Below, piece after piece: positions 3,439 to 64,000 of a stretch of DNA of 64,000 nt. This DNA comes from Diacronema lutheri. Its lineage: Eukaryota > Haptophyta > Pavlovophyceae > Pavlovales > Pavlovaceae. The position numbers and the translations under genes were made by a program. The notes beneath the pieces are model-generated. The model saw nothing but the letters and a program-made list of their open reading frames with translations, had not been told where the DNA came from and searched no databases. Numbering within the stretch: the stretch's first letter is position 1; each line of letters begins with the position of its first letter. The stretch is from NCBI GenBank assembly GCA_019448385.1, contig JAGTXO010000061.1, forward strand, positions 124,001 through 188,000, read 5' to 3'.

Positions 3439-3844
3439 TTACGGGGCGTGCGAAGCCGCGAGCGGCTCGTGCTGAGGCTGAAGATCGCCATGAAGCGTTG
3501 TTCTCAGCAGGGTGTGGCAGGCGCGCTTGGTCGCGCCACCGGCTGCGCCGCCGCGCGGCGCCGCCACGCGCGGCGCCGCGTGCGCGCGCGCGCGCACGGC
3601 GGCGGCCGCGTCCTGTGCGCCACTGCGGCTCGCCCGTGCCCGCTTCGGGCCCGGGGGCGTGGCGCGCGTGCTCGGGCTGGCCGAGCCGCCCCGCCGCAAG
3701 GTCGCCGCCGACCGGCGAGGGGCTGCGCCGTTCGCGGCTGCCGTGCTGACGCGACGCTGGCGCTTCGCCTCCGGCGCCGCGTCGCGTGCGGACGCGAGCG
3801 AACCTCGCGCGTTGCCGCCGGTCGTGCCGGTGCCGGCAGCGGCA

Positions 3845-3877
<33 letters not shown>

Positions 3878-5795
3878 TGTGCGGCAGCGGCTGCGGCACC
3901 GTCGGCGGCGCCGGCAGCACCAGCACTGCCGCTGCGGCCGCGGCCGCGGCCGCGGCCGCGGCCGCCGCTGCGTCCGCCGCCGCGTCCGCCGCCGCGTCCG
4001 CCGCCGAGGACGCCAACGCCGCTGCCGCTGATGCCGGCGCCGCCGCCGCCGCCGGCGCCGCCGCCGCCGCCGCGGCTGCCGGCACCGCCGCCGCCACCGC
4101 CGCCGCCGGAACCGCCGCCGCCGCCGCCGCCGCCGCCGCCCGCCTCGTCTTCGTCCACCTGCAGCTCGCCCTTGTCGTGCTCTCTCTCGCGACCGAGGGC
4201 GCGCTGCCAAAAGGCCTTGACGCGCTTGAAGCGGCCGGGCTCGGACGTGATGCGCTCAGTCCTGCCGAGGTGGTCGGCGACCATGTCGAGCACATCGTGG
4301 TAGATGCAGCGCGCCGCCGTCCAGTCGCGGTGGTAGATGATGCCGCACGCGTCGCACCGCGTCGCCCGCCACGCGCCGCGGCCGCTCGGCGAGCTGCGCG
4401 CGTACGGGTGCAGCGTGCCTCCGCATCGCTGCAGCGGCGGCGGCTGCCCCGCCGCCTCGTCCGCCGTCGTCGGCGCGCCGTCGTCGGCGGGAGCGCCTGC
4501 GCCGGCGTCGGCGGCCGGCGCCGCGCTCGCAGCGGGCGCGCCCCGCACCTCGCGCAGCTGCGAACAGCACTTGGAGCTGAGCGGCTCGGGCACGAGCGTC
4601 GCCGCGACGCCGCGCCGGCGCAGCGCGCAGAGCACGCCGACGCCGAGCGCCGGAGCCTTGCCGCGCACGCAGCCGCCGCCGCGCGACCGGTGGAGCCAAT
4701 CGCCGAAGAGCACGAGCAGCTGGTCTGGCCGCAGCCCTCGGTCGGTCGCGTGCGCGCGCACGATCCGCGCCGCCGCGCGCGCGCACTCGCGCCGGTTCGC
4801 GCCGCCGCGCCGCTTGCGCGCGCGCAGCCGCGCGCGCGCGCCGTACACGGGCAGCGTAGCCCGTCGCACGCGCTCGTGCGCGCGCGCGTAGGCGGCCTGG
4901 TCGTTCGCGCCGAGCGCGGTGCGCCCGCCGTGCGCCGCGCCGAGCTCCGCCTCGAGCGCGGCCGCCGCGGCGGAGCACGCGGCGCGCGCGGCCGCGCGCC
5001 GCCCGGCCCCGACGGGCCGGCGCGCGCGCCCGGCTCGACGAGCGGCCGTTGCCGCGCGCCCTCGAGCTTGCTGCGCTCGCGCGCGTGCCCCGCGCGCGCG
5101 GCGCGCTCGCGCTGCGTGAGGCGAACCGAGGTGGGCTCGAGCCCGTGTCCGTTCGGCGCGTACGTCACGAAGCCGTCGGAGCCGGGGTCCACCGTGGCCG
5201 TCTTGAGGCCGTGCACCTCGATCGCCTCGGCCAGCTGCTCGGGCGTCGCCTCGTCGAACGTGCCGTTGGGATCGCGCCAATCGTCGAGGAAGGACTTGCT
5301 GCCGCCGGGCGGCGGCGGCTTGAACACCGGCACGACCACCTGCCAGGCGTGGCCGTTGTGGCGCATGTACACCGGCGGCTGCGGTCCGGCGGACGCGGTC
5401 GCGGGTGGGACGGCGGTGCCGACATACGTGGGCCGCTGCTCCGCCGTCACGTCGCTGCCGGGCAGCTGCTGGCCTGTCCACCGCATCGCCCGCTCGTCGA
5501 GGCTGACGAAGTGGCTGAAGATCATGTCCCTGACGCGCGGGTCGCTGGTCGCGTTGCGCGGCTCGTCGTGCGGCACGCCGTCGGCCGTCGGCAGCTCGCG
5601 CGCCCACTCGCGGACGAAGGCCGTGTCGTCCTCGTCGAGCAGGAGGTACAGGTCCTGCGCGGACAGGTCGACAAAGCGCTTCTGCATGCTCCCGCGCCGG
5701 GGGCAGAGCGCGTACGGCGGCGGCTCGCCGGTGACGTGCGTGTAGAGCATCGCGAGGCGCGCGAGCAGCGACGCGCCCATCGCCGCCTTATCCGG
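3439..5795 (-). CDS. Fanzor nuclease A: RuvC core and low-complexity NLS-bearing tail
   Basis: This is the C-terminal half of a Fanzor (eukaryotic TnpB-like RNA-guided DNA nuclease). The exon starts at 5795 after an intron. The RuvC-I motif reads TVDPGSDGFVTYAPNG, with Asp at 5189-5187. RuvC-II carries the Glu of PEPLSSKCCSQL (4587-4585). The zinc ribbon and RuvC-III read RCDACGIIYHRDWTAARC, with Asp at 4326-4324. A basic stretch (RARLRARKRRGGANRREC) precedes RuvC-II as in the family. The frame changes by one base between RuvC-I and RuvC-II, in a G+C run near 5005, which fits a single-base loss or an assembly error. Compared with the central Fanzor, one ribbon Cys position reads Leu (SKCCSQL). 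The tail is Gly/Ala-rich and holds two NLS-like patches, PEAKRQRRVS (about 3748-3775) and GPKRARA (about 3631-3651), then stops at 3439. Family call is firm; activity is doubtful because of the frame break. Confidence 0.75.
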
Positions 5796-6117
5796 CTGCG
5801 CGGCGCACGCAAGGGAAGGAAGGGGGGGAGGGGGGGGGGGGTGGAGGTCGGGGAGCACGCCATCAGCGCCGTCGAGCGCTCCGCGCGCCGTGGCCCTGCT
5901 GCGCGCGCGCGCGGCACGTCGTCCGCGCGGCGCGCGCCCGTCCATGCCCGGCCGCGGCGCCGCGCCGCGGAGCGCGCGCGCGCGGGGCGCGCCGCGGCAC
6001 GCGCGCGCGCCGCGCGGACGGCGCGGCCACCGTCGCGCGGCCGGCCCGTGCGTAGCCCCCTCCGTCCCCGCGCGCGCCGCGCGGCGCGCGCGCGCGCGCG
6101 CGCGCGCGCGCGCGCAC
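5796..6117 (-). other. Intron of the giant/Fanzor A gene
   Basis: The donor is ...CTGACG|GTGCGC (GT at 6117-6116). The acceptor ends ...GCCGCGCAG at 5796, after a C/T-rich tract. Both sides are in phase 0: NYFLT joins PDKAAMGASLL. The intron is 322 bp. It contains a (GC)n run of more than 40 bp at 6070-6115 and a poly-C tract on the sense strand near 5822-5840. Confidence 0.7.
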
Positions 6118-9100
6118 CGTCAGGAAGTAGTTGGTCGTGTGCCTGACCTTGGGGTCAGGCGTGCTGTAGTCGCATGGGAGCACGAGCCAGTCGGCGTGCT
6201 GCGCGAGCGCGGGCGGCAGCCGCGGCGCCGCGCCGGCCGTGTCGCCTGACCACAGCAGCTTGAGCAGCGTCGCGACGTCCGCGTCGCGCTGCTCATTCGA
6301 CGTGCGCGCGCCGCGCGGCTTGGCGGCCTCGCCCGCGTCGATCGCCGCGCGCAGCAGCTTGCGCAGCAGCTTGTACGCGACGCGGCGCGGGTGCATCTTG
6401 TACGCGGTGAAGATCTTCTCCGCCTCGGCGTCGACGCAGCCTTTTAGCGAAGGGTGCGAGCGCGCCGTCGGCGCGTCGCCCTGCGACAGCCGGTCAATGT
6501 GCCGCTGGTTGCGCGCCCGCTGCGCCGCGTTGGCCTCGCCGAGCGGATGGCCGCACTTCTGGTCGGGCGGCAGCTCGATCTGGCGGATCAGGTTCTCCAC
6601 GTCGTCCTCGCCCTTGGGGTAGCCCTTCAGCTCGTCGTCTGGGCGCTGCAGCTCGTCCCCGGGCGAGCACTGCCCGGCGTTCGGCAGCGATGTGTGCGCG
6701 CGGTCGTTGAGGACGTTGTACGTCATGCGCGTGCTGGCGTTCTCCTCGTCCACGACGTGCATCAGCTTGACGCCGTACTTTGCCCGCCCGCGAAAGGCGC
6801 CGTCGCTGAGCTCCAGGGTCCGGTACTCCGTGTGCCAGCCCTTCGGCTTCTGCAGGCAAGCGATGCGCTCGCCCGTCGCGTCCGGCGGCTCGGCCGGCGG
6901 CTCGGCGCTCGCGCAGCACGCGCAGGCGGACGCGTTGGCCGCGCCGGCCGCCGGCGCGGCCGTCCGCGCGGCGCGGCGCGGCGTCGCGGCCGGCTCCGCG
7001 CACTCGCCGCACGCGAGCACGCCCCCGCCGACCGCGCCGCCCGCGCGCGGCCGCGCCGCCGCCGCGCCGCGCCCGGACGCCGGCGCGGTGCTCACCGGCG
7101 ACTTGAGGAGAGCGGCCTCGCGCTTGGCCTCCGCGCGCAGCCACGCCTCGAGCAGCCAGCCGGCCGCCTGCGCGTCGCGCTCGCGCGGCCACACGCGCCC
7201 GACGTTGCCCAGCAGGCCGCCGCGTTCCACGCGCAGCACGCACAGCGCGAGCGCGAGCGCCCACACGCCCGCGCGGCCGGCGGGCGGAACGTACGCACGC
7301 GAGCGCTCCGACCGGCGCAGCGGCTCGAGCGTCGCGCCAAGGCCGAACACACGCGTGACGAACCCGCCCGCCCAACTTGTCGCCGCCGCGCCCGCCGCGC
7401 CATCGCGCGGCTCGCGCTCGAGCAGGAGGAACCGGCGCCAGCGGCCGCTCGGACCTGCGCCGTGCTCGTCGGCGGCGAGCAGGAGGAGGAGCTGCGGGTC
7501 GGCGCCGTCGCTCGGCGAGTGGACGAGCAGCAGCGCGTCGCAGTCGGTATCGTCGAGACGCTCGCGCAGCCGCTCTCGCGCGGCCTCGTGCCGTGCGTCG
7601 CGCGCGTCGCGCAGCACGCGCGTCTCGCCCGGGCCGAAGAAGGCGCGGAACCCGCGCGCCGGGTCGCGCACCTGGGCGAGCACGCCGTCAATGGCGGCGG
7701 GCGTCACGACCGCATGCTTGCCGCCCGATGCCTTGAGCTCGTTCAGGCACCGCGCACGAGCCTCCCCCGGCGTCGGCGCCGCCGACGCCGGCGCGGACGC
7801 GACCGGCTGCTGCGTCACCGCCGCGTCGCGCGCTCGCAGCTGCGCTGCCGTCTCGCGCAGGATGAGCGCAAACACCGCCGCGCGGTACTCGGCGAGCTGC
7901 GCCGTCGCGTGCACGTTGAGCGCAAGCACGCTCGCCGCGGCAGCGAGCGCGCTCTGGTCGCCGCCGCCATCGCCGCCGCCGACGCCGCCGCCGCCGCCGC
8001 CGACGTCGGCGGCGGCGTCACGCGCGCCGAGCGCGAGCCAGGACATGACCACGACGCAGGCGGCGCGCGAATCCGCCTTGCGCTCGACGCGCCGGCGGCC
8101 GCCGACCGCGCGCCCGTGCGCCGTCGGCTGCGCCGACCGCGCGGTCGCCGGCGCAGCGCCGTCGACGGGCGGAAGCGCGCGCAGGCGGAGCGCGCGCGCG
8201 AGCCCGCAGACGAGCTGCTCCGCCTGGCGCTCGATCTCCTTGGCGCGCTCGCGCACGGCGATCGGCTTGGCCCCCGTGGCGCGCTCCGGCGCGGCGGTCG
8301 GGTTGTAGTGCTGCACCCAGCCGCCCTCGCCGTCGCGCACGACGACCACGACGGCCGCGCCGACCCGCCGATTGGTGCTGGCGAAGAGCAGCGCGAGGTG
8401 CGTGCACTCGCCGAGGCCGTGCTCGTCCAGCGCGGCCTGCGCGCGATCGGGCTCGCCGCCGCCGTCGGCGACGGCGGCGAGCAGCGCGCGCGCGACGGCC
8501 GGGCCGGCCGTCCTCCACGGCCGGCCGGCTTTGTCCGCGGCGCGGTTGATCGCGCCGAGCTCGGCCTCGACGACGATCGAAGGCACCTCGGTGTACTTGC
8601 CCTGGAGCGCGCGCACGTCGTGCGTCGACAGCGGCCGCCCGCCACACATGTACGTGAGCGGCGGACCGCCGGGTCGCGCCGCCGCGTCGACGCGCGCGGT
8701 GTCGGCCGCGAGCCGCGCGCGCGCCTCGGCATCGCGCTTGCGCTTGCGCGGCAGCGGCGGCAGGTGCGGCGCGACGCGGCGGCCGCGCGACTCGCCGGCC
8801 GGCTCCGCGCTCGGCGCGCCGGGCGCGCCGGCCGGCGCGCCCGCCGCGCGCGCGCTCGCGCCGCCGCCGCGCGCGCGCGCGCCGTCCGGCTCGGCCGCGT
8901 ACACGAGCAGCAGCGCGCGGCCCTCGAGCGCGACCCTCGCGGTGCACGCGCGCCTGCTCGCGGCGGCAACGCGCATCCAGTCGCGATCGCCGGGCGCGAG
9001 GGCAGCGCAGGCGACGAGCCGCTCCTTGTCGTCGCACGCGTCGCGCAGCACGACGGCGACCAGCCTGAGCACGGCGGCGGGCTCGGCGGCGGCGTCGGCC

Positions 9101-9400
9101 CCGGCGGCGTCCGCGGTCGGCTCGGCCGGCTCGGCGCCGCGCGCGACGCGCAGCGCGAGCCGCTCGGGCATCTCGAGCAGCGACTCGGTCGCGTCCGCGA
9201 CGTGCACGACGACGAGCCGCGGCGGGTTGCGCACCCCGTGCGCGCCGAGCGCGCGCGACACGGCGGCGCTGGCGCTCGCGCCGCGCGCGTCGGCGGCGCG
9301 CAGCGCGACGAGCGGCCACGCGGCCGACGCGCCGCGCGCCGAGGGCGCGCCCGGCGCCGGCGGCTCGCCGCCGCGCAGCGCGCGCTCGCTCGAGCTCGTC
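6118..9400 (-). CDS. Middle part of the giant gene, including the probable Fanzor A N-terminal region
   Basis: This continuous frame of about 1,090 residues joins the Fanzor core through the phase-0 intron at 6117-5796. The last 300 residues before that intron are compositionally normal and globular (KGWHTEYRTLELSDGAFRGR, RQIELPPDQKCGHPLGEANA, YKMHPRRVAYKLLRKLLRAA). They are likely the N-terminal part of Fanzor A. Upstream lie repeated hydrophobic-strand modules such as LALLFASTNRRVGAAVVVVV and a Cys-rich stretch (ACACCASAEPP). A basic RKRKRDAEAR patch near 8750 could be nuclear targeting. A frame change near 9400 separates it from the protease/nuclease part; I found no convincing splice sites there. 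Whether protease, nuclease and Fanzor are one polypeptide or two genes is unresolved. No enzymatic family is assigned to this middle part. Confidence 0.5.
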
Positions 9401-12400
9401 GCTCGCGCCGCACGCGCGCAGCACGTCGAGCAGCGCGCGCAGCGCGCCGTCGGCCGACAAGCCGCGCGCCGTGCCCGCCGGCCAGCCCGCCGACTGCTCG
9501 AGCGCGGCGGCGAGCGGCGCGACGCGCGCCGACTCGGGCGCGCTCTCGTCATCGGGCTCGAGCGCGTTGTGCAGGCGCGCGAGCGCGCGCGCGACGGCCG
9601 CGGCGCCACTGTCGGGGGCGCGGCTCGCCGCGCGCACCGCGCGCCGCCAGGCCGGCACGAACATGAGCGCCGACACGAGCGCCGCGAGCGCGCGCGCCTC
9701 GCGCGCGTCGCTCGCGCCGAGGCGCGGCGGCACGCGCGCGGCGCCGCGCGGCGCGGTGCCTCGGAAGCGTGGGCTTAGCGTGTAGGCGAGGTGCTGCGGC
9801 ACGCCGCGCGCCTCCGCGAGCGCGCGTCCGTCCTCGACCTCGCGCCACGCCTCCTCGATCGCCGGCGTGGCGCGCGCGAGCCAGTCGGGGTCGGCGGGCA
9901 GGTGGATCACGACGAGAATCGGCGCCCAGTCCAGCCGCGGGTTCTTGTGACGGTCGGGCACGACCCACACGAGCAGCACCGTGCCCTCCGCGCCGCACGC
10001 CGCCTCGTAGATCCTGGGCTGCGAGCGCCAATCGGGCTTGACGCGCAGCGCCCGCGCGTGGACGATGGCAGCGGCGCGGTCGCCATCGAAGTGAACCGTC
10101 TTCACCTCGCCGATGACGGACCGGCCGGACGGCCAGCAGAACACCGCGTCCGCCGACCCGCCGGCGATGGCCGCGAGCGGTTCGGGCGCGGCGAGCCGCG
10201 GCAAGCCCTCGAAGACGGCAAAGTCCTCGTCCGCATTGTACACGCCGCCCCAGCCGTCGAGCGCGTACGCGCGCGCGGCCGCTCGTACCGCGTGCAACTG
10301 GTTCTCCACGCCCGACGTCATGTGCCATGTCGTCCCCGCGAAGCCGGGCTCGCCCAGCTTGGCCAGCACGACGTTACCGTACCCCGCGCCCTGCGTCGGG
10401 GCGGCGAGGCGGTGCATCTCCGCGCCGGTCATGACCTCCGGGCGCTGCTGCGTGACGATCGTGCCCGTCGCGTGCGCGTCGAGCGTGTCGACCACGGCGG
10501 GCGCGCGCCCGCTGTTCGCCCGTAGCCGCGCCCTGCCCGCTTTTAGCTTCTCGGGGTCCTTGGCGTCGTACACGCGCGCGTCCGCGTCGTCCTGTCCAAG
10601 CGCAGTGTAGACGCAGCGGCGTTCGCGTTCGAGCGGCGCCGAGCCACCGCCGTCCGCCGCCGCCGGCGAGGTTGGCGCCGCGCCCGCCGCCACCGCGCTC
10701 GTCGCCGCCGTGCCCGTCACCACCACCGCCGCGTCCGCCTCGCCCGCGTGTGGCGCGCACGGCGCCCTCGGTGCCGCGACGGCCGCCGCCGCCGCCACGA
10801 CGAGCGCGCCCGCCGCCGCGTTCGCCGCCACGTGCGCCACCGGCGCGCCGAGCGGCGCCGAGCCACCGCCGCCCGCCGCCGCCGGCGGGGTTGGCGCCGC
10901 GGCCGGGGACGCGGCGGCGAAGCGCGCCGCGAGCGGCACGTCCCTCCGCCAGCGACGCGCCGCAACGGCCACGGCCGCGCGCTCGACACCGTCGCGCGCG
11001 TCGGGCAGGCCGGCGATGTGCGCGTTCGCACTGCGGCGCATCTCGTCTGCGCTCGTGCAGCGCGCCCACGCGTCGCCGAGGTCGTGGCACACGACCGCAC
11101 GCGCGAGCAGCGCGAGCTCGAGCGCAAGGACGGGCGGCTTCACGCGCGCGACGCCGCCGATCGCGACGTGCGTCGGCTCCGTGCTGAGCAGCTCCGCGCT
11201 GCGCAGCTCGCCGACGTGCGCGCGCGCGATGCGCCAGTCGTCGTCGCCGCCGACGCGCGGCGCGACGAGCAGCGGCCTCGCGGGGGCGCCCGCCGCGCGC
11301 GGCGGCAGCACGACGAGCAGCGCCACGACCCGTCCGCCTGTGCCATCGCGCAGCGCGACGACGAGCCTGGGGCGGAGTGACGGCGTCGACCGGCGCGTGC
11401 GTTTGCGGAAGCCGTCGGCGCCGGCCGCGCTGCGCGCCTCCGCGAGCACAACGTCGCCGTCGATCGCCGCCCACGCGCCGTCGACGTGCGCGCGCGCGAA
11501 GAGCGGCGCGAGCTCGGCGGCCGCGAGCGCGGCGCACGCCGACGGCGCGTCCGCCCCGACGCGCAGCACGTCGAGCGCGTCGCGGAGCGGCGGCGCCGTG
11601 TCCGTCGCCCACCGCCACACCTGCTCGCCGTGCGCGTCGAGCGCGCGCGCGACAGCGCACAGGCGCGCCTCGTCGGCCGCGCCGACCACTCGGCGCGCCG
11701 GCGCGTGCGGCTCGACGCGCTCGTACAGCGCGACCACGGCGAGCTCGCGCGCCTCGGCCGCCGCGCTGCCAGCGTTGTCTCGCTGCTTGCCGCCGCCGTC
11801 GACGCGCCACCAGCCGCCGTCGGGCGCGGGCGCGAGCACGGCGCACGCGTCGCGCTTGCGGCCGCGGCGCTGGACGAGCACGCTCGCCAGCGCGAACGTC
11901 GCGTCGGGGCCGCCGACGGTGCCGAGCACGAGCGCGCCGCCACCGCCGCCGCCCGGCCCGCCGAGCTCGACCGGCTCCTTGTCGGCCGACGGGCGGTCGA
12001 TCGCGACCAGCAGCGCACGCGGCGCGCTCGAGAGCCGCACTCCGCCGAGCAGCTGGGTGACGTCGCGCACGCCCGGCGTGCCGCGCTGCCCCGGCCGCGG
12101 CGCGACGCGCAGCATCGTGAACGGCGCGTCGGCCGAGCCGTCTTCGCCGGCGCAAACGCCGGAGAAGAGCTGCCAGTCGGGCAGGGCCACGTGCAGCTCG
12201 GCGACGAGCCGCTCGGCGACGCGGCGCGCGTCGCGCAGCTCGTCCGTGCGCCGCCGCGAGCGCTTGGCAGCGCAACGCGGGTCGCGCAGCGCGAGCAGCA
12301 GCTGGCGGAGGCGCAGCCGCGCGCGCACGTCCGACAGCCGCGCGACGCGCGCCAGCAGCGAGCGCAGCACCTCAAAGGGCGCGCGCTTCGCGTCCAGCGC

Positions 12401-13780
12401 GTCGCCGCGCGCGCCGCCGGACGGCGCAAAGGCGAGCGCCAGCTGCTCGCGCACAGTCGCGGCGGCCGCGAGCAGCTCGAGCACCGCCTCGGGGCTGGCC
12501 AGCGCGAAGTCCTCTGGGGCTGCCGACGGCGAGCCTTGGCCGCCGCCGCCGCCGCCGCCGTCGCCTCCGTCGCCGCCGCCGCCGCCGTCGCCGTCGCCGC
12601 CGTCGGCGGAGTCGTCGTCGGTGTCGTGACCCGCATCGTCGTTGGAAAGGTCGTCGTCCCCGTCCTCCGCGTCCTCCCCGTCGTCAGCGGTGGTGGCGTC
12701 GCCATCGCCCCCGTCGCCCTCGCCCACGCCGAGGCTGCTGAATGGTCGGTGCCCCCACGCCGAGGCGGCGCGCCGCTGCGGCGCGCGCGGCGGTGGCGCT
12801 CGCGACGGCGGCCTTGGCGCCGCCGCGCCGCGCGGCCTGGCCGCCGTCGACAGCGCGCGGCCTGCAGCGCCCGTGAGCGCGTCGAGCGCGGCCGTGCGTA
12901 CGATGCGGTCGGCGGGCGCGCACAGCGCCGCCTCGACGGCCTGCAGCAGCCCGTCGGGCGCGGATCCGCCGACACTGGCACCGCACGCCTCGGCGAGCCG
13001 CGCGGCCTCGGCGAGCCGCGCGGCCTCGTCGCGCGACGCGCCGCAGCGCCTGGCGCCGTCGTCGAGCAGAGCGCCGATGGCGGCGCGGAGCGTGCGCTTG
13101 CGGGTCTCCTCGTACGCGGCCCTCTTGAGGTGCTCGAGGCGCGCGTCCAAAGCTTTCTTGATCCTGACCAGGTCAGTCGCGCGGCGGCCCGCCGTCGGCG
13201 CTGCGCTCGCCGCGACCTCGGCCGCGAGTGTTGCCGCGGCGAAGCAACACTCGTTCCCACTCTGCGCGGGCGCCTTCAAGGCCCCGATGGGCGGCGCTGG
13301 GATGCCGATGCGCTGGGCGAGCGTCTTGATGAGCTTGCCGGCCGCCGTGGCGTGCGCCGACTCGCCATTGCCCAAGCTGAGCGAATCGGCGTGCAGGGCG
13401 AGCGCGGCGCCGTGCGGCGCGCCGGGCTGCGCGGGCGGCGCGAGGAGCAGGTACGCCGCCGTGCAGTGCCCGACGCTGCCCGGCGCCTCGAGGAAGAGCG
13501 GCAGCACGATCGCGAGCACCCGCCCATCTGTGTGCGCACTCGCGCGTGCTTGGCCCAGTTTGTGCAGCGCCACGTCGAGCGCATGCTTCGAGCACGCCTT
13601 GTACTCCACCTTGACCACGCTCGGGCCGAGACTCTCGCCATGCAGCAGGGCGAGGACGCACTCGGGTGGGACCACGTGGGGGTGGCGCACATCGTTCGCC
13701 ACAGTGGTGCTGAGGGCCAGCGAGAAACTGTCCGAGCTGCCCAGCCCGCCGCGCAAAGCGTCCTTCACGGAGTCCTCCAT
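9400..13780 (-). CDS. Giant protein N-terminal part: C48/Ulp1-like protease plus PD-(D/E)XK nuclease (left copy)
   Basis: ATG at 13780 (MEDSVKDALRGG). The N-terminal 200 residues show the order expected of an Ulp1/adenain-type cysteine protease: His in SVGHCTAAYLLL, Asp in ALHADSL, then Gln and Cys in PAQSGNECCF. Next come an Asp/Glu/Gly-rich linker and about 600 residues that are absent from the right copy. In that stretch TFALASVLVQRRGRKRDACA followed by PDGGWWRVDGGG recalls a degenerate USP His box. Near residue 1225, GGSADAVFCW...SVIGEVKTVHF followed by RSQPRIYEAACG matches the D...ExK...Q layout of lambda-exonuclease/YqaJ-like PD-(D/E)XK nucleases; Glu and Lys are at 10108-10106 and 10102-10100. 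The paralogue is at 55070 on the other strand. Reading in this frame becomes uninformative below about 9400. Domain calls are motif-based. Confidence 0.6.
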
Positions 13781-15140: not shown

Positions 15141-15149
15141 GGAACTTCC

Positions 15150-15687: not shown

Positions 15688-15725
<38 letters not shown>

Positions 15726-16504: not shown

Positions 16505-16707
16505 CGCACGTGCACGTGCGCGCCACTGGTCACATTTGAGCGTCCGTGCTCGCCCACAGCGTCGCCATCCACAAGATGCGCGCTGGAGCCATCCAAGCAG
16601 GGCTCTGCCTGCTCGGCTTCCGCAAGGCAATTTGGGCCGCGGACAGCGGACAGCGGACGGCGTGCGCGTGCGAGGTGCGAAAGGAGGAAGAAGGTAGGGA
16701 GAGTTGT

Positions 16708-16738
<31 letters not shown>

Positions 16739-44066: not shown

Positions 44067-44099
<33 letters not shown>

Positions 44100-46199: not shown

Positions 46200-46313
46200 T
46201 TTTAGAAAGCGGCGGCGCCTCAGAGCATGGCGCCCGCCCGCTCGAGCCGGACCTCCGCGCAGCCGGACTCGCCCCGCCCCGGGCTGCTCTGGCTGGGCGA
46301 CGTCGTGCGCGCC

Positions 46314-52357: not shown

Positions 52358-53134
52358 CTGGACGTCGAGCGTGTGCGCCTTGTCCGCACTTGTGCACTCA
52401 CGTGCGTCTGCGGCGATCTGCCCGGCGTAGTAGTCCGCGCGCGCGGGAGCCGCGTCGGCAGTAGGAGCAGGATAACGTACTTGCGCCTAAGGAGGACGGC
52501 GAGAAGTGCGGCTTTTCGCTCGGGGTCTACCATGCCGCCGAGGTTGGCGCTGGCGCGCGTGAGGCAGTCGGAGCGCGCTGGGCCCGGGTTGAAGGCCTCA
52601 CCCCGGGGGACGGGAGGATTCAAGGCGCCGAGCCGCTGCGGGTGCGGCGGGAGGCCCCGGGCGGGTGTGCTAATGCGGCTCGATGGCCGCCTGCCGGGGG
52701 GGGGGGGGGGGAGGGGGGGGGGGGGGGGGGGGCGTTGGGCCGCCCGCGGAAACGGAGGTGAGCGTGTGGGAGCGGCGCGCGTCGGCGCGCGCGGCTGGCG
52801 TGCAGCACGGATAAGTCTTGTGTGGACTTCGCGGGGCGGATCCCGGTGCAGGGATTGCCGACGTAGGCCGCGAGCGCGAGCAGGGCGGGGATGAAGACGG
52901 ATGATGGGGTTGGGGCCAAGGCCGCCGCACCCGCAGCTATCACGGTGGCAGCGACCGCCACGGTCAGTGCGAGGCTCGCGTGGCCGCTGCGCGGGCAGCT
53001 CGCCCGCCAGGTCCAGGAGGGCCGGCCTGCGGCCTCAGTGCCCAGCGTTGGGCATGTCAGCGTCTGCGTCTGCGGGCCCGCCACTGCGATGGCGCATTGA
53101 GCCTGGCGCACCAAAACGCAATCGGTCCGCCGAT

Positions 53135-53166
<32 letters not shown>

Positions 53167-53708
53167 CGAGGCGTGCGCGGGGGCTTGGGGTGGGCTCCGG
53201 GTGCCGGCGCTGTGCCAGCGGCGGGCTTGGTTGACGCCGTCTCGCCGGGGCCCTTGCGCCTTGCGGCGCGAGCGTCGCGGAGGGGCGTCGGCTGCGCTGG
53301 CTCCGCGTCGGCGGTGGCGTGGGGCAGGCTCTTGTGGAGGGCGGAGCGCTCGCGCACGAGTCGGTTGCCAAGGCGGGCTGTCTGCGTGCCGTTGGGCTGC
53401 GCTTGGGCAGGTAGGACCTGCGGCCTCGGGGGCGGGCGGGTTTTCGTGTTGGGCCAGGCGGCAACGCGCACCGGCCGTGTTCGCGGCCGGCAGGCGGACG
53501 TCCGCAGCGGGGCGGAGAATGCGGGTGAAGCGCTTGCACGGGCGCGGTTCGCACCTGGCGGCCAGGCGATCACGAACCGTTGGGTCGCCCGGCTGTTTGG
53601 TGGAGCCGAGGGCAGCAAGGATAGCGAGCTTGGCCGCCTCATCGGTGACGAGCGGCACTGTTGCCCAGCTCTGTACCTCGAAGCCCTGGATGTGCAGGCG
53701 TCGGGGAA
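52354..53708 (-). pseudogene. Retroelement relic with NPGP motif and truncated EEP start, right copy
   Basis: Mirror of 15150-16504. The sequence RGEAFNPGPARSDCLTRASA and NLGGMVDPERKAALLAVLLR is kept, and the end again overlaps the USP stop by four bases. G runs on the plus strand (52685-52731, about 53138-53166) split the frame. Confidence 0.45.
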
Positions 53709-55069
53709 GTTCCCGGCAGCGTCGCCTGCGTCCGTCGAGAGGCGGACCGAAGTCGCGCCCGTGCCCCCGTTGGCGACACCGAGCTCTCGCTCGTTCACAC
53801 CGGCCCGCCGACGCGGGCGCGTGGTGCGCGCGCGTTGGGTGCGTGTCTGCCTCGAGCAGCGTGCCCAGTCGCAGTGTGGGCGCGTGTCCGTCTGCCTCAA
53901 AACGCCACGTGGAGGGGAAGGCGCGGGGCGGGCTCGCCGAGGAGGTGCCGCCGCTCGCTGCCACCCGGCGCGGGCTCGGGGCAGCCGTCTTCGGGTGCCG
54001 CGCTCTTCGCGCCATGCACGAACGTTCCGCCGCGCTCGCAGCGCGCGAGCGCACACACAGAGCGCGCGGCGACCCCGGTGGGGGCAGTGCGTCCCGGTGG
54101 CACTCGCGGGCGCGCGCCTGGCCTGGGCGCAGCTGGGCGCGTTGCCGCCCGCGCAGCGAGCCGCCCGCGCGCCTCGCCGCGCGCGCGCTTCGTCGCACGC
54201 GTGCGCCCTGCATGCACGCGCACAGCGCGCGGCGGCTCGGCGCAGTGCAAGGCAGAGCGTGCTGCAACGGTTGCGAGGGCGCGCACGCGCGGCGCGGCGC
54301 GCCCCTGTGTGGTCGCCTGCGCGCGGCGCGTGGTCCGGACGCAGCTCGGTGGCGTGATGCCGTTCGTGCAACACAGTGCGCGTGAGAGCCGCACGTGCAC
54401 ACCTGCAGTGCAACGCGGCATTGCGCGCGTTGCGTGGGCGGAGCGCGGCTGGATGTGCTTGAGGTCGCGCAGCATGCCGCGCGCCGCGCGCTGTGCGGCG
54501 CAGCGAGTCGGCCATGCCCCTGGTCCTCGTCTCCGGGGGGGGGGGGGGGGTGGTGGTGGCAACCATGATCCGCCAGCGCGTGGTGGGCGCCGTCCAACTC
54601 CCAGCCAGGATGCGCCCCGTTCTTCCCCGACACTCTCCGTCCAAACCCGCCGCCCAGCCTGCCGCCGCACCCGCCGCCAACGCCGCCGCGCACCCATCCG
54701 CCGAGCTCACCTCGCGCGCGCTCGCGCTCACGCTGCGCGACGAGGCTGCGCAGGCCGGCGCGCGGCCGTGCAGAGCAGCGCAGGCCGGCGCGCGGCCGCG
54801 CGCGCGCGCTCACGTTGCGGCCGCGCAGCGAGCTTTCGCCGCGTCGCAGCCCCTCCGAGCAGCCACGATGCACGCCCCCGGAGGACGTTGGCCGCGCTCG
54901 GAGGCCGCGCTCGGGCGCGCAAAGAGAGGCGGCGCGGGCAAACGAGTAGGCTCGGCGCGCTGGCGGGTCCTGGTTGTGGGAGAGCGGGGCATTCTCCAGG
55001 GCATCATGTAAATTCTCCCAAGTATCATCCGGGCCGCCATCCGGACACTGACGTGCCCACAGTCTGCAG
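53709..55069. other. Outer part of the right arm, no gene recognised
   Basis: Mirror of 13781-15140. It ends with the leader of the giant gene, which is nearly identical in both copies right up to the ATG. Confidence 0.4.
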
Positions 55070-58000
55070 ATGGAGGACTCCGTGAAGGACGCTTTGCCCG
55101 GCGGGCGGGGCGGCTCGGACAGTTTCTCGCTGGCCGTCAGCACCATTCTGTCGCCGGGAGATACCCACCCCCACGTGGTCCCATCCACTTGCCTCATCGC
55201 CCTGCTGCGTTACGCGGATTTCGGCACGAGCAGGGTTAGGGTGGGCGACACGGGGTGCTCGCAGCATGCGCTCAAGGTGGCGCTGCGCAACCTGCGCAAA
55301 GCATGCGCGGATGCGGACCGGTTTGGGCAGGTGCTCGTGGTCGTGCTACCGCTCTGCCTCCGCGCGTCCAGCGGCCTCGTGCACTGGACGGCGGCGTACC
55401 TGCTCCTCGCGCCGCCCGCGCAGCGCGGCGCGCCGCCCGGCGCCGCGCTCGCCCTGCTCGCCGATTCGCGCACCTTGGGCAACGGCGAATCGGCGTACGC
55501 CACGGCGGCCGGCGTGCTCATCAAGAAGCTTGCGCAGCGCATCGGCAGAACAGCGCCGCCCATCGATGCCTTCAAGGCGCCCCCGCAGAGTGGGGCCGCG
55601 TGTTGCTTCGCCGCGGCAACAGTCGCGGCCGAGGTCGTGGCGAGCGCATCGACGCTCTACGGCCGCCGCGCGAGTGTCCTTGTCGACATCAAGAAGGCTT
55701 TGGACGCGCGCCTCGCGCGCCTCACGACGGCCGCGTACGAGGAGACCCGCGCGCGCACGCTCCGCGCCGCCATCGGCGCTCTGCTCGGCGACCGCGCCAG
55801 GCGCTTCGGCCCGTTCACCCGCGAGGCCGCGCGGCTCGCCGAGGCCGCGCGGCTCGCCGAGGCGTGCGATGCCAGTGTCGGCGGATCCGCGCCCGACGGG
55901 CTGCTGCAGGCCGTCGAGGCGGCGCTGCGCGCGCCCGAAGACCGCATCGCACGCACGGCCGCGCTCGACGCGCTCACGGGCGCTGCAGGCCGCGCGCTGT
56001 CGACGGCGGCCAGGCCGCGCGGCGCGGCGGCGCCAAGGCCGCCGTCGCGAGCGCCACCGCCGCGTGCGCCGCAGCGGCGCGCCGCCTCGGCGTGGGGGCC
56101 CCGACCATTCAGCAGCCTCGGCGGGGGCGAGGGCGACGGGGACGATGGCGACGCCACCACCGCTGACGACGGGGAGGGCGCGGAGGACGGGGACGACGAC
56201 CCCGCGGGCGCGGCGGCTGCGGCGGTGGCGACGGGCACGGCGGCGACGAGCGCGGTGGCGGCGGGCGCGGCGCCAACCTCGCCGGCGGCGGCGGACGGCG
56301 GTGGCTCGGCGCCGCTCGAACGCCGCTGCGTCTACACTGCGCCTGATGAGGGCGACGCGGACGCGCGCGTGTACGACGCCAAGGACCCCGAGCAGCTAAA
56401 AGCGGGCAGGGCGCGGCTACGGGCGAACAGCGGGCGCGCGCCCGCCGTGGTCGACACGCTTTTCGCGCACGCGACGGGCACGATCGTCACGCGGCAGCGC
56501 ACGGAGGGCGTGACCGGCGCGGGCATGCACCACCTCGCCGCCCCGACGCAGGGCGCGGGGTACGGTACCGTCGTGCGGGCCGAGCTGGGCGAGCCCGGCT
56601 TCGCGGGGACGACATGGCACATGACGTCGGGCGTGGAGAACCAGCCGCGCGCGGTACGAGCGGCCGCGCGCGCGTACGCGCACGACGGCTGGGGCGGCGT
56701 GTACAATGCGCACGAGGACTTTGCCGCCTTCGAGGGCTTGCCGCGGCTCGCCGCGCCCGAATCGCTCGCGGCCATCGCCGGCGGGTCGGCGGACGCGGTG
56801 TTCTGCTGGCGGTCCGGCCGGTCCGTCATCGGCGAGGTGACGACGGTTCACTTCAATGGCGACCGCGCCGCCGCCGTCGACCACGCGCGGGCGCTGCGCG
56901 TCAGGCCCGATTGGCGCTCGCAGCCCAGGATCTACGAGGCGGCGTGCGGCGCGGAGGGCACGGTGCTGCTCGTGTGGGTCGTGCCCGACCGTCACAAGAA
57001 CCCGCGGCTGGACTGGGCGCCGATTCTCGTCGTGATCCACCTGCCCGCCGACCCCGACTGGCTCGCGCGCGCCACGCCGGCGATCGCGAAGGCGCGGCGC
57101 GAGGTCGAGGACGGACGCGCGCGCGCGGAGGCGCGCGGCGTGCCGCAGCACCTCGCCTACACGCTGAGCCCACGCTTCCGAGGCACCGCGCCGCGCGGAG
57201 CCGCGCGCGTGCCGCCGCGCCTCGGCGCGAGCGACGCGCGCGAGGCGCGCGCGCTCGCGGCGCTCGAGCCGGCGCTCATGTTCGCGCCGGCCTGGCGGCG
57301 CGCGGTGCGCGCGGCGAGCCGCGCCCCCGGCAGTGGCGCCGCGGCCGTCGAGCGCGCGCTCGCGCGCCTGCACAACGCGCTCGAGCCCGATGACGAGAGC
57401 GCGCCCGAGTCGACGCGCGTCGCGCCGCTCGCCGCCGCGCTCGAGCAGTCGGCGGGCTGGCCGGCGGGCACGGCGCGCATGGCGGCAAGCGTGACCAAGG
57501 GCCCCGGCGTCGGAGATGGCGCAGGTGGCGACGAAGTGACCAAAGTGGAGGAAACGGCGAAGACGAGCGGCGACGGCTGCACCGGCACGCCTCCTCTGCG
57601 CCCGGCCGCGCGCGCGGCCGGCGCGGCGGACGACGGAGGGGCGGCGGTCGTGGCGGGCGTCGAGGGCGAGCGCGACGCACTCGCCAAGACGGGTGCCGGC
57701 GGCTGCGACGACGACGCTCGCGAGCCGCTGTCGGCCGGCAAGCCCGGCGCACTCGCCGCCGCGGCGACCGTCGGGGGTCTCGGCGAGCTCGTCGGCAGCC
57801 TATGCGCGTGGCTGGCGCGCGGCGCGGCTGGCGGCGCCATCGCGGCCATCTCCCCCGGGACGGCCGCGCGCGGAGCAAACGGCACGCCGCAGCGCGCCGA
57901 GCCGCCGGCCGCCGGCGATCCCGTCGCTCCGCACGCGCGCGTCGCCGCTGCGGCGCCCTTGGCGGGCAGCGCGGCGGCGCCGTCGTCGGCCGCGCGCGAC

Positions 58001-61000
58001 GCGCAGCGCGGCGTCGCGGGATTCGACGCGGCCGCGCACGCGCACGCGCGCGACGGCAGGCGGGCGGCACGGCGGATGCGCGAGCAGGAGGGGGCGGTGC
58101 ACAGGGCCTTCCGCATGTCCCTCTGGCGCGACGCGACGTTTGTCGAGTTCGTTGAGAAGCTGCGCCCCGACGGCGGCGCGCAGCTGCTCGCGCGCGAGCC
58201 CACGCGGCGCGCGGCGGCGGTGCTGTGCGAGCTCGCGCGCGGCCGCGACGGCGCGAGCGGCGCGGCCGGGCTGCTGCACGAGATGAGAGCCGCCGATGCG
58301 CGCGCGCGCGAGGCCGCCAAAGCGGCGGAGGCAGCGCAGCTTGCGCACGGGACGCTGCGCATCGTGGCAACCGTGGCGCTGGGCGGTGCGGTCTTCGCCG
58401 GCATGTCAGCGCTGGTCGTTGCTTGCGCGGCGCGCACGGCGACCGGTGCGCTTTTTGGGGCCCGCCGCCCGCGGGCGGCCGCGCGCGGAGCCGACGACGC
58501 GCTCGGCACGCTGCAGCGCGCCAAGCCGCCGCCCGCCGACAAGGGCAAGCGCAGGCGCGCCAGAGCCAACGACGACCCCGTCGACGCGGCGCGCAAGGCC
58601 GTGGGCAAGGCGGAGGGCAACTGCCGCAAGGCAGCCCGCCGGCTGCACCTCGCTGCACTGGGCGAGGAGGAGGCGCAGCAGCGCGTGCTCGACGCCGAGG
58701 CGGCGGAGCAGCTGGCGCGCTCGCGCGAGCCGGCCGGCGGCTGGGTAGGCAGCGCGCGCGCGCGCGCGCGCGCGCGCCCCGCCGCGCGCGCGCCCGTCGA
58801 TTGGCGTGCGCGCAGCGCAGAACGGCGCGCCAGCTCCGTCACCTGCGCGCCGCCGCGCCCGTGCCCCTCGCGCGCAGGGGCGCCCTGCGGACCTGCGGCT
58901 GCAACAGGCGCACTTTGGCATGCGCGAAGATGCCGACGCGGATGTGCGCCGCGCGCACGAGGCGCTGCGCCGGGCGAGACAGGGTGTGGCGTGCGCCAAG
59001 GCCAGCGTGCGGCAGATGGAGGCGGCGTTGCTCAACGCGACGCGCTGCGCCACCGCGGTGCTCGCGCCGCGTGGCGTGCCGGAGGGTGACGAGCAGGCCG
59101 CGGCGAGAGAGCAGGCGGCGCTGGACCGGGAGGCGCCGCCGGCCGCGCAACGCGCGGCGCCGACGGCGCGCTCGCCCTCGGAGCCGCCGTCCGAGTGGGG
59201 CCCGCCAGCGGTCGGCCGGCGCCCGACGCCGCGTGCACTGTCGCACGCCGCGGGTCGCGGGGACGACAACCCGTTTGCGCCGCTCGCAACCGTCAGCGGC
59301 GATTGGTCGCCCACGCCGAGCTCGCGCTCGCCGTCCTCGCCGCCGCGGCAGCCGCTGTCCGACCGCCGCAGCGCGCAGCGTCGCAGCGCGCGCGCGCGGC
59401 CGCCGAGGCCGACCGTTTCGCCCGAGGACGCGCTCGCAGCCGAGCGCCAGGCGCGCGCGCTGTCGGAGCAGGCGGAGCAGAGGCGCGCCAAAAAGGCCGC
59501 CGCCAAGGCCGCGCGCCGCGCCGCGCGCGCCGCCGACAAGCGGACGGCGCGCGTCGTCCACGCGTGCGTAAGCGCCGCCTTGCGGCGCGTCTGCACGAGC
59601 GTCGCCACGGGCACGCCGCTCGCCGTGCTCCGCGAGCGCGCCGAGGGGCCGCGCGCGCCGAAGCCCGCGCCCGCGCCGCCACGCCGCGCAGCGGACGGCG
59701 GCCGCGCGCTCCGCCACGCGCGCCGTGCGGCCGCCGCGGCGGCGGAGCGCGAGGCGGCGGTGGCGGCCGACGCCGACGAGCGGTTCGAGCGGCAGCCCTC
59801 CGCCGCCCGGTTCGACGGCGGCGATGGCGGCGGAGGCGGCCACGTCGAGGCGAGCGCGCGACCGCGCGCCGGCGAGGCCGGCGAGGCTGGCGCGCACGGC
59901 GCGCCTGGCGCAGCGGGGACCCCGGCGGCGTCGCTCGCGTCGCGCAGCCCGTGTGATGCGCGCCGCACGGCACGCCTCCCGCACGCACGCGCCGCAGCCA
60001 CCTGCGCACGCAACGGCGGCTGGGGTGGCAACGTCGGCGGCGACGTGTGCGGCGGTTGTTTCGGCGGCGGCGGCGTCCGTCGCGACGCCTGCGGCGGCGG
60101 CGACGCCACCTGCGGCTGCGGCGATGGCGGCGTCGGTGCTGGCGCTGGCGAGGCCCCTGCACACGGTGCGCCGGCGCGCGCGACGGCGTCGCGCTTGCTG
60201 CGCTTGCTCGGCGCGCCACGCGCCGTGCTCGGTGCGATGGCGCACGCCGCGGCCGTGTTGGCGCGCGGCGTGGCCGCAGCCGTCGCTGGCGTGCGCGCCG
60301 CCGCGCGCGCCGTGCGGCGCGCGCGCCGCCGAGCGCCTCGCGCGCGCCGCACGGCTGCGCGGCGGGCTCGCGGCCCGCCGATGCGCGACGTCGACGGCGC
60401 CCTGCGGCCCTCGCCGTCCTGGTTGCGCACACGCCTCGTCTGCGGCCGGCGCCTCGCGCCTCTGCGCCGCGCGGGCGCGCGCCCGCCGCCCGCACACGCC
60501 GCGCCGAGTTCCCGCGCGCGCGCTGCGCAACCCGACAGCGACGCGCCGGCGTGCGCGCCGCGGCGCTCGGCGCCTGTCGGTGCGCCGCCGCGCGCGCGTG
60601 GCCTGCGCGCGGCGCGCGCACGGCGCTTCCTCGACGTCGCCGGCCGCGCGGCGCGGAGCGCGCGCCTCGGCGCGCGCATCACGCGCCAGCGCACGCCGGG
60701 TTCGCCATCGGAGCCCTGCACGGCCGAGAGCGGCGACGGCGCGGGCGCCGGCGGCGTCGGCGCGGCGGCGCCTGGCGCGGCGACGATGCGCGCCACCGGC
60801 GCGCGCGCAGCGCGCGCTGCGGCGGCGGCGGTCGGTGGCGCCTCGCGTCTCGCGCGCCGCGCGATGGCAAGCGCCGCCGCCGCTGCCACCTCCATCGCCG
60901 GCGCTGCCGCCTCCACCGTCGCCGCCGCCGCCGTTGCCATCGGCGCGGCCGTCACGTCACCGGCGTTCGCCGCGGCGCGCGGCATGGCGGCCGCATGCGT

Positions 61001-63326
61001 CGCTGCCTGCGCCCGCCCCACCGCCGCGCAGGCGGCCGCGTCGCGCGCGCTCGGCGCGCTCTTCGTGCTCGTCGACGCGGCCGACGCGGCGGGCGACAGC
61101 GACGCCGCGCTCGGCGCGCTCGCGGCCGCGGTCGACGCGACGGAGCTGCGCCCGCCGCCGGCCTTTTGGCGCGCGGGCCGCGCCGCGGCGTACGCACCGC
61201 GTCCGCCGCCCCTCGACTCGGCGCGGCCGCGCTACAACCGGCGCGCGCGCGCACCTAGCCCTCCCGTCGCGGCCCGCGCGGCGCAATCTCGCGCGCGCGG
61301 TGCGCGAGCTCACGCGCGCCGCGCGCGCTGAGCGCGAGCGCGCGCCGGCGCCGCGCGGCGCGCGCGGCGGCGTGCTCCACGCGCTGCGCGCGTCGCTCCC
61401 CGTGCACGCGCGTGCCGCGCTCGGCACGGACGCGGAGCTGCGCGCGGACATCGCCGCGTTCGCGCGCGCGCGCCGCGAGCTGCACAGCCTCACCGACGCC
61501 GAGGTGGCGGCGCTCGCGCGCCCGGACGGGCCGCCGCTGCCCGTGCGGCTCGCGTGCACGGCGGTCGCGCGCGCGCGCGGCGTGACCGTGCTGCTCGACA
61601 TCGTGCCGCGCGGCGGCGGCGCGCCCGAGCGGCTCGTGTGCCGCGCCCGTCGCCGCGGCGCCGCCACGCGCACGCCACGGCCGACAGCCGCCGTTATCGC
61701 GCGCGCGCCTTGCATAACGGCGCGCGTTGGCCACACTGAGCCGGCGCGCGCGTGCGCGGGCGGATCGATCGGGGTCGCGCGCCTCCGTTCAGCGCGCCGC
61801 CGCTCTTGGCGTGGGGCGCGGCTCGACGTGCACACCCGCGAGCGGCTGGCCACACCGGTGCCAGGCCACGTCGTGGCCTGCGCCGCCGCCTCGGCCATCG
61901 GCGCGTGCGTCGCTCGCGCGCGGCTTGGGCTTGCACGGCTGGCGCGCGCGTGGCCCTGCGCCTCCGCTCCACTGGCCGCTGCTGCTGTCGCCTTCGCGCC
62001 TGCCGCCGACGGTGTTTTCTGCGCCCCGCTGGGCGCTCCTGCATCCGCCTTCGCGCCTGCCGCCGACGGTGTTTTCCCCGCCGCACTAGCCGCTGCTGCA
62101 TCCGCCTTCGCGCCTGCCGCCGATTTTCCCGCCCCACTAGTTGCTCCTGCATTCGCCTCCGCGCCTGCCACCGACGGCGTTTTCCCCGCCCCACTAGCCG
62201 CTGCCGCTGCCGCGTCCGCGCCCGCCGCCGCGGGCGCGTCTTCCGCCCCACCAGCCATCGCCGCCGCGCCCGCCGCCAACGCGCGCACCGCCAACGTGCC
62301 CGTTGCCAACGAGGCTACCGCCACCGAACCAGCCGCCCTTGAGCTTCCCCTCCAACCCGCCAACTCGGCGCTGCTTGCGTGGGCGGGCGACGCGGCTGCG
62401 CGCCGGCTGGCCTCCGCCGCCGCGAGCGCCGGCCTCCCGCAGGCAGAGGTGGAGCGCATCGCCAGCGGCGACATGCTCGCCTCAACCGTCGACGCGTGCT
62501 GCGAGGTCGTGCTACGCGTGCACGGGCAGGCCGGCGGCGGGCATGTCTGCCACGTGCCGCTCGCCGCGCAACCCGCGGTGTTCCAGGACGGCGCCGAGCG
62601 CGCCGCGCTGCTGCACCGCCTGCGCAGCGAGGCGACGACGCAGGCTGTCATCGGCGTGTGGAGCCCGTCGGACGAGCGCGGCGGCGCGGGCGGTGACGAC
62701 GGCGCGCAGCTCGCCTCCGGCCATTTCACCGCGTTGCGCCTTGTGCGCGTCGCGCGCGCGGGCGAGCGTCGCTACGACGCGGTGCTCGTCGACACGCTCG
62801 CGTCGCCCTGCAGGCGGGCGCTCGTGCTCGCCACGGCGATAACTGCCACGCTGCACGCGGCGGGTCTCGACATTTCGCGCGTGCGCCGCGCGCGGCTGCT
62901 CGACGAGGCGGCGCAGCGTGGCGCGACGTGCGGCCTCGCGATAGTGGGCGCGCTCAACGACGCGCTCGCCGCGGCGGGCTGCTCGTCCGCGCCGCGCACG
63001 TTCAGCGTGGCGGACATGTACGCTGTCGGCGAGCGCCTCCGCGTCGCGCTGACCGGCGCGGCCAGCGATCGTGCGCCGGGCGGCGTCTGCGCGGGCACGA
63101 GCGCGGTGCGTGGCGGGGGCAGCCCCGATCGCGCCGAAGCGCCGCCGCAGACGCGCGTCGCCAAGGCCGCCGCTGGCGTCACCGCCGCCGCCACCGCCGC
63201 CGCCACGCCGCCGCCGCCCGCGCTGGGCGCCGCCGCCGCCGCCACCGCCGCCGCCGCCGCTGCTGCCGCCGCCGTGGCCGCGCCGTCACCGCCGCCACCG
63301 CTGCCGCCGGCCGGCGACGCGGGCGA

Positions 63327-63413
<87 letters not shown>

Positions 63414-64000
63414 GCGCACGTTCTTGAGGCTCGCGCCCAGGGCGCGCGCGGCCGCCTCGGCGCGTGAGGCGTTGCGCGCCGCGTGTGCGCGCGCGGACGC
63501 GGCGGCGTCGTCACACGCGTCGGCGCCGCACGCGCCCGCCGGTGCGCGCCGCCGGCGGCGCGCGGGCGCAGGCGAGCTGGCGCTCGCGGCTGCGCGCGCG
63601 CTCGCCTCGACGGAGCACGGCGATTTGACGGACGACGCGCTCGAGGCCGCCATCGAGCAGGAGCTGGGCGACGAGCGCGGCCAACTGCTGCTGTGCACGC
63701 GGGGCGCAGCGGCGCAAAGGCCCGCGCTTTGCCGGCTCCTGAAGCACGCGTGCGCGTCGGCGCGCGCGGCGAAGCGCGCGCAATTCACGGTGTTCGTCGT
63801 GCGCGCGCCCACGCGCGGCGAGCGGGGGGGCGCCGCCGCGACGCGCGTGGACTCGGTGGTCGAGCTGTCGTGCGCGCTGCACGAGAAGGCGGGCGCGCTC
63901 GGCGGCCTCCAGAGCGTCTGTGTGCGTGGCTTTGCCCTCGAGCGCCGCCGGACACTCGACGGTGGCGCCGAGGCCGGCGCGTCCGCCATCGGCCAGGACG
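55070..64000 (+). CDS. Giant protein with two C48/Ulp1-like domains and a PD-(D/E)XK-like domain, right copy (3' end outside window)
   Basis: ATG 55070 (MEDSVKDALPGGRGGSDSFS). The model is join(55070-58744, 58821-61200, 61259-64000), about 2,930 residues and open at the window edge. Intron 58745-58820 is phase 0 with a (GC)n tract; intron 61201-61258 (58 bp, phase 1) is more tentative. The first protease domain has LVHWTAAYLLLAP (His105), LLADSRTLG (Asp132) and PPQSGAACCF (Gln173, Cys178). The nuclease-like domain reads GGSADAVFCWRSG then VIGEVTTVHF, with Thr591 where the left copy has the catalytic Lys. A hydrophobic helix lies near residue 1100 (IVATVALGGAVFAGMSALVV). Exon 2 is Ala/Arg-rich. 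Exon 3 has a second protease signature: ASGHFTALRL, VLVDTLASP, AAQRGATCGLAIV. It lacks about 1.9 kb present in the left copy. Confidence 0.6.
61981..62200. repeat. Imperfect approximately 60-bp tandem repeat coding for PAADGVFPA units
   Basis: Four imperfect copies of a unit encoding (S/V)AFAPAADGVF-PA(P/A)LAA within exon 3 of the giant gene. The units keep the reading frame. Confidence 0.7.
63328..63416. repeat. GCC trinucleotide run encoding about 30 Ala
   Basis: A nearly pure (GCC)n run in the reading frame of the giant gene, between the second protease-like domain and the last visible segment. Confidence 0.85.

Follow-up and report, generated by a model that had tools for sequence, protein, structure and literature searches.

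A family of giant, possibly Helitron-like mobile elements at TATATA sites in the haptophyte Diacronema lutheri

Giant transposons that carry cargo genes are well documented mainly in fungi, and Starships combine giant size with cargo. The element we investigated comes from the haptophyte Diacronema lutheri (assembly of 43,492,796 bases in 103 contigs). It is found in a stretch of 64,000 nucleotides, bases 124001-188000 of contig JAGTXO010000061.1 (C1; 197,600 bases), which we call the window; its first base is position 1, and the contig ends at window position 73600. The window contains two copies of this element in opposite orientation. The element almost certainly represents a mobile family, and we lean towards a giant rolling-circle element of Helitron-like type, with a nuclease that is either unrecognised or supplied in trans.

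The Chlamydomonas Helitron2 elements CRe-1, CRe-2 and CRe-3 are described as carrying Fanzor1 cargo and inserting 3' of TTTT, with no target site duplication (TSD) at full-length ends and TSDs of 7-19 bp in others (Bao and Jurka 2013; PMC3627910). The D. lutheri element is similar in its Helitron-type helicase, its Fanzor cargo, its insertion 3' of a fixed short motif (here TATATA) and its TSD pattern, mostly none with 13 bp in one copy. It differs from the Helitron2 elements of that account in that a Rep is not detectable, asymmetric terminal inverted repeats do not exceed chance, the ends are other ones, the length is 21-31 kb, and genes for a RecE-like exonuclease, a chromodomain and UCH are present. 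Helitron1 elements have 5'-TC...CTRR-3' ends and insert between A and T, whereas the ends here read GGCGCGG... and ...CTATAC. Shared with the Helitron superfamily as a whole are the RepHel-type helicase, the lack of a TSD (10 of 11 copies) and the lack of an inverted end match above shuffles (two copies); however, the HUH Rep fused to the helicase was not found. The Fusarium FoHeli elements, as presented in PMC5148889, likewise have non-canonical ends, signs of recent activity and, in one group, a target preference of their own, but they are about 5 to 11 kb long with asymmetric terminal inverted repeats, in contrast to 21-31 kb without them here. Helentrons and HINEs resemble the element in a rolling-circle type helicase, a T-rich target and non-autonomous companions, whereas the Rep motif and the endonuclease reported for them (PMC4067079) were both not found here.

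The first-pass annotation of the window had proposed two inverted copies of a mobile element, each at least 20 kb long. Self-BLASTN of the window bears this out: positions 9464-25296 match 57478-43348 in inverted orientation at 93-96% identity. The matching blocks are 12524-22680/56314-46179 (96.2% over 10,184 columns), 23311-24751/45435-44023 (95.8%), 9464-10748/57478-56203 (95.5%) and 24758-25296/43874-43348 (93.3%), together with further shorter inverted matches; relative to the right copy, the left copy has an extra 1.8-kb stretch (10748-12524). The inner pair of mirrored positions, 25,289/43,355, marks in either copy the base following the TATATA at its 5' end. The copies, their targets and the palindromes within them are as follows:

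43356..64000, continuing to the contig end at 73600, + strand: right copy, 31-kb class; starts at 43356 (5' end) behind TATATAC, with the 3' end expected near 74360
3426..25288, - strand: left copy, about 21.9 kb, a member of its own; 5' end at 25288, probable 3' end at 3426
43349..43354, no strand: TATATA target of the right copy
25290..25295, no strand: TATATA target of the left copy
43395..43412, no strand: perfect palindrome of 18 bp, GTACGACCCGGGTCGTAC, close to the 5' end of the right copy
25221..25238, no strand: the same 18-bp palindrome GTACGACCCGGGTCGTAC in the left copy
45347..46217, no strand: 870-bp imperfect palindrome (92.8%, self-BLASTN) in the right copy, a low-GC stretch for the window

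The likeness of the copies had been thought to continue outward into paired giant genes. At the DNA level it ends at 9464/57478; outside these positions it is detectable as protein likeness of 30-40%, only in the Fanzor-like tail and in the end of the second large open reading frame (ORF), ORF2, that lies next to it. Past 9464 the left copy has a Fanzor-like tail 30-40% identical to that of the copy on contig C100, and the giant ORF2 is missing save for its far end. The motif ...GCATATAC follows directly after its Fanzor-like ORF at about 3426 (read in one copy), and ...GGTCGCATATAC at 3426 is likely the 3' end of the left copy. Up to the end of C1 the right copy is 99.0% identical to C100:6-21636 and 98.3-98.8% identical to the end of C97; because the likeness between C97 and C100 stops at C97:278704 / C100:22395, the 3' end of the right copy is expected about 760 bp beyond the contig end. 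A copy on C9 has the identical 5' start base as the right copy and matches it at 99.2% over 15,209 columns. The annotation had referred to the two copies as arms. Since the left copy has a different 3' half, the inverted pair is not one duplicated unit; the copies are distinct members of a family for which 239 5' ends can be recognised, placed about 18 kb apart in opposite orientation.

The ends of the element are fixed, with 5' GGCGCGGTCCGGG... and 3' ...GACCATCTATAC. The search for further copies that the annotation recommended was productive: allowing up to one mismatch, there are 239 5' ends (pattern GGCGCGGTCCGGGCTGGTCCGG) and 220 3' ends genome-wide, and the reversed 5' and 3' patterns, used as a control, have 0 matches genome-wide. 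With TATAS (S being C or G) demanded in front there are 223 5' ends, and 181 with exact TATATAS. These counts of ends are not counts of whole copies. Pairing drew on the first 100 listed of the 223 5' ends and of the 220 3' ends; 100 of the 239 were listed as well. A 3' partner within 60 kb was present for 61 of the 100 listed 5' ends and absent for 39. One pair, on C27 (37,842 bp), was excluded from the size tally as its 3' end is common with another pair, which leaves 60: 27 at 30.4-31.1 kb, 7 at 29.0-29.5 kb, 8 at 26-27 kb, 13 at 21.4-21.65 kb and 5 of other sizes, that is, 55 of the 60 measured copies are near 31, 29, 26 or 21.5 kb. Together these pairs occupy 1.66 Mb, or 3.8% of the genome, and because under half of the ends were listed, we extrapolate to a family share of roughly 8-10%. 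The 98-99% identity of the copies read indicates that the family is recent.

Two other views of the family were considered and given up. A search with the DNA of the arms, which skips words common in the genome, gave only two other contigs and hence only three copies; the scale was revealed by a Pif1 family search (150 scored of 414 candidates). Contigs begin at element ends in both orientations, as a telomeric element might, but three TTTAGGG in a row had 0 matches genome-wide, and other telomere motifs, counted in the fetched DNA, also gave 0. The contig starts need not be telomeric since read length accounts for the breaks: the read N50 is 23.458 kb, as given in the genome paper (PMC8379373). 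The element seems to break this assembly and probably explains many of its contig breaks. Among 20 contig ends picked for a helicase at the expected distance, 14 begin no more than 12 nt away from an element end; both orientations occur.

Exact TATAS precedes 84 of the 100 listed 5' ends, and TATATAS 83; the remaining 16 do not follow it. TATATA occurs six times in the window (0.24 expected from base composition), and five of the six adjoin ends of the element or of a small repeat, repeat B. Both C and G occur as the S base in each size class (C/G 7/6 at 21.5 kb, 3/5 at 26 kb, 5/2 at 29 kb and 15/12 at 31 kb), and on C75 a giant element and repeat B flank one single TATATA. Because C and G are mixed in all classes and the C75 TATATA is common to the element and repeat B, TATATA is part of the target. 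Elsewhere, both in L063 and in the window, repeat B likewise adjoins TATATA, and the sequence on the far side is a different one. TATA is present at both junctions; the 3' end itself reads CTATAC and the 5' end GGCGCGG.... The target duplications that the annotation proposed to look for are mostly missing: in 10 of the 11 copies read at both ends the direct repeats score 2-5, like mismatched pairs (mean 3.6), one copy (C9b) has a TSD of 13 bp, and as a set the direct repeats are not above shuffled pairings (p 0.12, 11 pairs). A palindromic target centred on TATA was considered and rejected (permutation p 0.07, 11 pairs).

The helicase of the right copy lies in three frames:

46789..48099, + strand: frame 1, motifs I/Ia
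47061..48977, + strand: frame 2, from motif II to RRQFP; Helraiser is its best PDB match
48811..49785, + strand: frame 3, containing ...HGQLHVAASR

The annotation had labelled this protein a Pif1-type helicase, and the family assignment is supported but can be refined to the Helitron type. In the PDB search, Helraiser (a Helitron transposase) scores 96 bits with the window copy and 74 bits with a copy on C96, versus 29 and 36 for PIF1; the genome's best-scoring PIF1 gene (C86), used as a control, scores 360 with PIF1 versus 63 with Helraiser. These scores indicate that the helicase of the element is Helitron-type, unlike the genome's PIF1. HGQLHVAASR resembles a Helitron motif. The part ahead of the helicase in frame 1 matched no family or relative. 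Among three protein searches with 8000 candidates scored in each, one returned the element's own protein and a 640-amino-acid PIF1-like protein (54% identity over 12% of the query), the second nothing, and the third the element's own protein only.

The other genes of the element are:

50214..51707, + strand: UCH/USP gene, right copy (E 4.3e-08)
17164..18657, - strand: UCH/USP gene, left copy (E 1.5e-09)
55052..59086, + strand: ORF1, right copy, 1345 amino acids, without family match
8021..13798, - strand: ORF1, left copy, open over 1926 amino acids, with two blocks of 74% and 90% likeness
59572..64000, + strand: start of ORF2, frame-split here; its exonuclease and chromodomain lie past the window, in L018
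3442..5787, - strand: left copy, diverged Fanzor-like tail, 37% identical to the C100 tail; TNB domain below the Pfam cut-off

The cargo labels USP, lambda-exonuclease-like nuclease and Fanzor of the annotation are supported; a Fanzor-like ORF is present both within the element and in the spacer between the copies. In contrast, its C48-like protease was not recovered: a genome-wide Pfam search for C48 gave 9 matches, none on C1. ORF1 has 1345 amino acids in C1, C97 and C100. ORF2 is a single frame of 4518 amino acids at C100:6765-20318; 4518 amino acids are also recorded in C71 and 2843 in C97, and the frame is split in the window. No match was found for ORF1 and most of ORF2 in the scans made, and neither has internal repeats at E 0.01. 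The exception in ORF2 is a RecE/lambda-type exonuclease (PHROGs phrog_434, 1.5e-15), below the cut-off with NCBIfam TIGR03033 (1.6e-5) and Pfam YqaJ (0.015), and above it with YqaJ in the C71 ORF2 (5.9e-5; one match among 150 scored), together with a chromodomain (3.5e-12). PHROGs also gave weak matches to a Cas4-domain exonuclease and a Dda-like helicase, and NCBIfam a weak TnpB match (0.027), each alongside chance-level ones. Downstream of ORF2, the Fanzor-like protein has a TNB domain above the cut-off (2e-6); in the PDB, the Fanzor-like ORF hit nothing beyond Cas12f1, weakly (E 0.3), and two entries at chance level. Rfam at gathering scores found nothing in the window.

In a Helitron-like element of this kind, a nuclease would make two nicks, one 3' of TATA..[C/G] at the target site and one at the ...CTATAC that closes the element. 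The Helitron-type helicase would unwind a single strand, to be joined 3' of TATATA[C/G] without duplication of the target; the motif may be read by one and the same nuclease in both places. This nuclease would be either an unrecognised Rep within the element or one supplied in trans. The rolling-circle replication, the single-strand nicking and the nuclease are parts that we infer: a single-strand rolling-circle transfer is suggested because the CTATAC 3' end, the insertion at TATATA[C/G], the usual lack of a TSD and the Helitron-type helicase fit it. Several observations weigh against this reading. The model for the HUH Rep, PF14214 (Helitron_like_N), matches one place in the genome only (C63:35738-36019), and scanning 43349-73600 and 3301-25300 for motifs did not turn up an HxH upstream of the Y/K motifs tried. 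Canonical 5'-TC/CTRR-3' ends are not present, and the scores for asymmetric terminal inverted repeats in two copies are reached by 191/500 and 198/500 shuffles. Compared with shuffles, the 3' hairpin gives z -0.33 in the 31-kb class and z -1.00 in the left copy, and the 5' end of the left copy, over a shorter stretch, z +0.73; among the four folded ends only the 5' end of the right copy (z -2.09) clearly beats its shuffles. Between motifs Ia and II, 110 nt apart in all 11 copies in which both were read, the helicase shifts to another frame, and it does so again before the last motif, where the change spans 97-99 nt; these may be introns or shared frameshifts, in which case the helicase would be spliced or broken in all copies alike. 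Single-sequence structure models have a predicted local distance difference test (pLDDT) of 35 for the helicase N-terminus, which is uninformative, and 38. Within the fetched DNA, to which the search was confined, there was no empty site. Since there is no place for a Rep other than the one on C63, the motif scan is negative and the asymmetric terminal inverted repeats are at chance level, we do not file the element as a member of the Helitrons.

The lack of a Rep, the TATA at both junctions and the absence of matches for ORF1 (1345 amino acids) and most of ORF2 (4518 amino acids) in the scans made might also point to a new class of giant eukaryotic DNA transposon. Here an unrecognised non-HUH recombinase, a nuclease of unknown fold in ORF1 or ORF2, would use promoter-like TATATA targets as its recombination site, with the helicase and the RecE-like exonuclease as accessory partners in replication or repair and the Fanzor-like protein and the chromodomain possibly steering or protecting copies; if the extrapolation holds, this one family would make up on the order of a tenth of a compact algal genome. 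We regard this explanation as tentative, as the helicase is of the kind fused to Rep in Helitrons, and the usual lack of a TSD and the fixed 3' terminus suit single-strand transfer. It is rather unlikely that the element is a non-autonomous giant Helitron that lost its Rep, and perhaps a working helicase too, and is moved in trans, for example by the Helitron of C63:35738. The one Helitron_like_N match in the genome makes C63 a possible autonomous partner, and the helicase frame change is common to all 11 copies; however, UCH and ORF1 have stayed open in both window copies despite their sequence differences, and the helicase frames are open on both sides of the change. A giant transposon with a tyrosine recombinase, similar to Starships or Cryptons, is improbable: size, cargo, the usual lack of a TSD and the TATA at both junctions would suit it, but PF00589 matches 16 places genome-wide and none in the window copies, versus 239 5' ends (a Starship-specific model was not searched).

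The annotation had offered a giant transposon or a degraded integrated virus-like element, and while the giant mobile family stands, we consider a viral origin very improbable. The RecE/lambda-type exonuclease is compatible with a virus, and Fanzor proteins occur in viruses too, as mentioned in PMC3627910. However, Pfam scans of the ORFs given revealed no viral hallmark, that is, no polymerase, capsid, packaging ATPase or integrase family (short exons could escape), unlike Polintons, virophages and giant viruses with their protein-primed polymerase, capsid and packaging ATPase; three viral-contig scans, which find close relatives only, returned no close relative. Just as improbable is an assembly artefact in which two haplotypes were wrongly joined. 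Many contig ends lie on element ends and the read N50 is shorter than the 31-kb class, but the two 5' flanks are visibly unlike, and the family is present at many other places regardless of this join. The 3' half peculiar to the left copy and the recurrence of both 5' ends at many other sites further reduce the worry about misassembly.

The spacer between the copies, in which the annotation had placed host genes, does contain MBOAT, SUV3 and DEG-type protease genes by Pfam:

25297..43348, no strand: spacer between the copies, with host genes
25296..26287, - strand: three small repeats B in a row, (C)TAACG[AG]CGCTT..., each adjoining TATATA, upstream of the left copy
26405-30958, + strand: Fanzor-like ORF of 1518 amino acids, outside both copies, with a C-terminal Cas12f1-like TNB domain
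31342-33003, - strand: MBOAT
37938-40823, - strand: SUV3
40592-42475, - strand: DEG-type protease (trypsin/PDZ)

The repeats B look like small companions on the same target. They are also found in L016, L053, L057, L063 and L067, and elsewhere their flank varies (TTAATA, TACATA). The Fanzor-like ORF in the spacer holds 3.1 units of a 278-bp repeat (27041-27934). To the left of the window, L014-L017 (C1:84001-124000) contain direct and inverted repeats nested in one another, many of them 1.5-6.5 kb long and 90-99% identical, and with them a tyrosine-recombinase match at C1:83672-84154.

In the genome paper, repeats make up 22.9% of the D. lutheri genome, with long terminal repeat elements accounting for 32.7% and long interspersed nuclear elements for 3.8% of the masked bases (PMC8379373). 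Its main text contains neither "transpos" nor "helicase" and does not mention the element, and no description of it was found in the literature searched. One family seems to form a sizeable part of this genome, and probably accounts for much of the unclassified repeat fraction of the assembly. The combination of a Helitron-type helicase, a phage-type recombination exonuclease and a Fanzor-like protein in one unit makes the roles of such cargo testable, and the TATATA target bears on gene regulation and on tools for targeted insertion. In a streamlined haptophyte genome, hundreds of recognisable ends of an element that reaches 31 kb suggest that such elements can also attain very high copy numbers.

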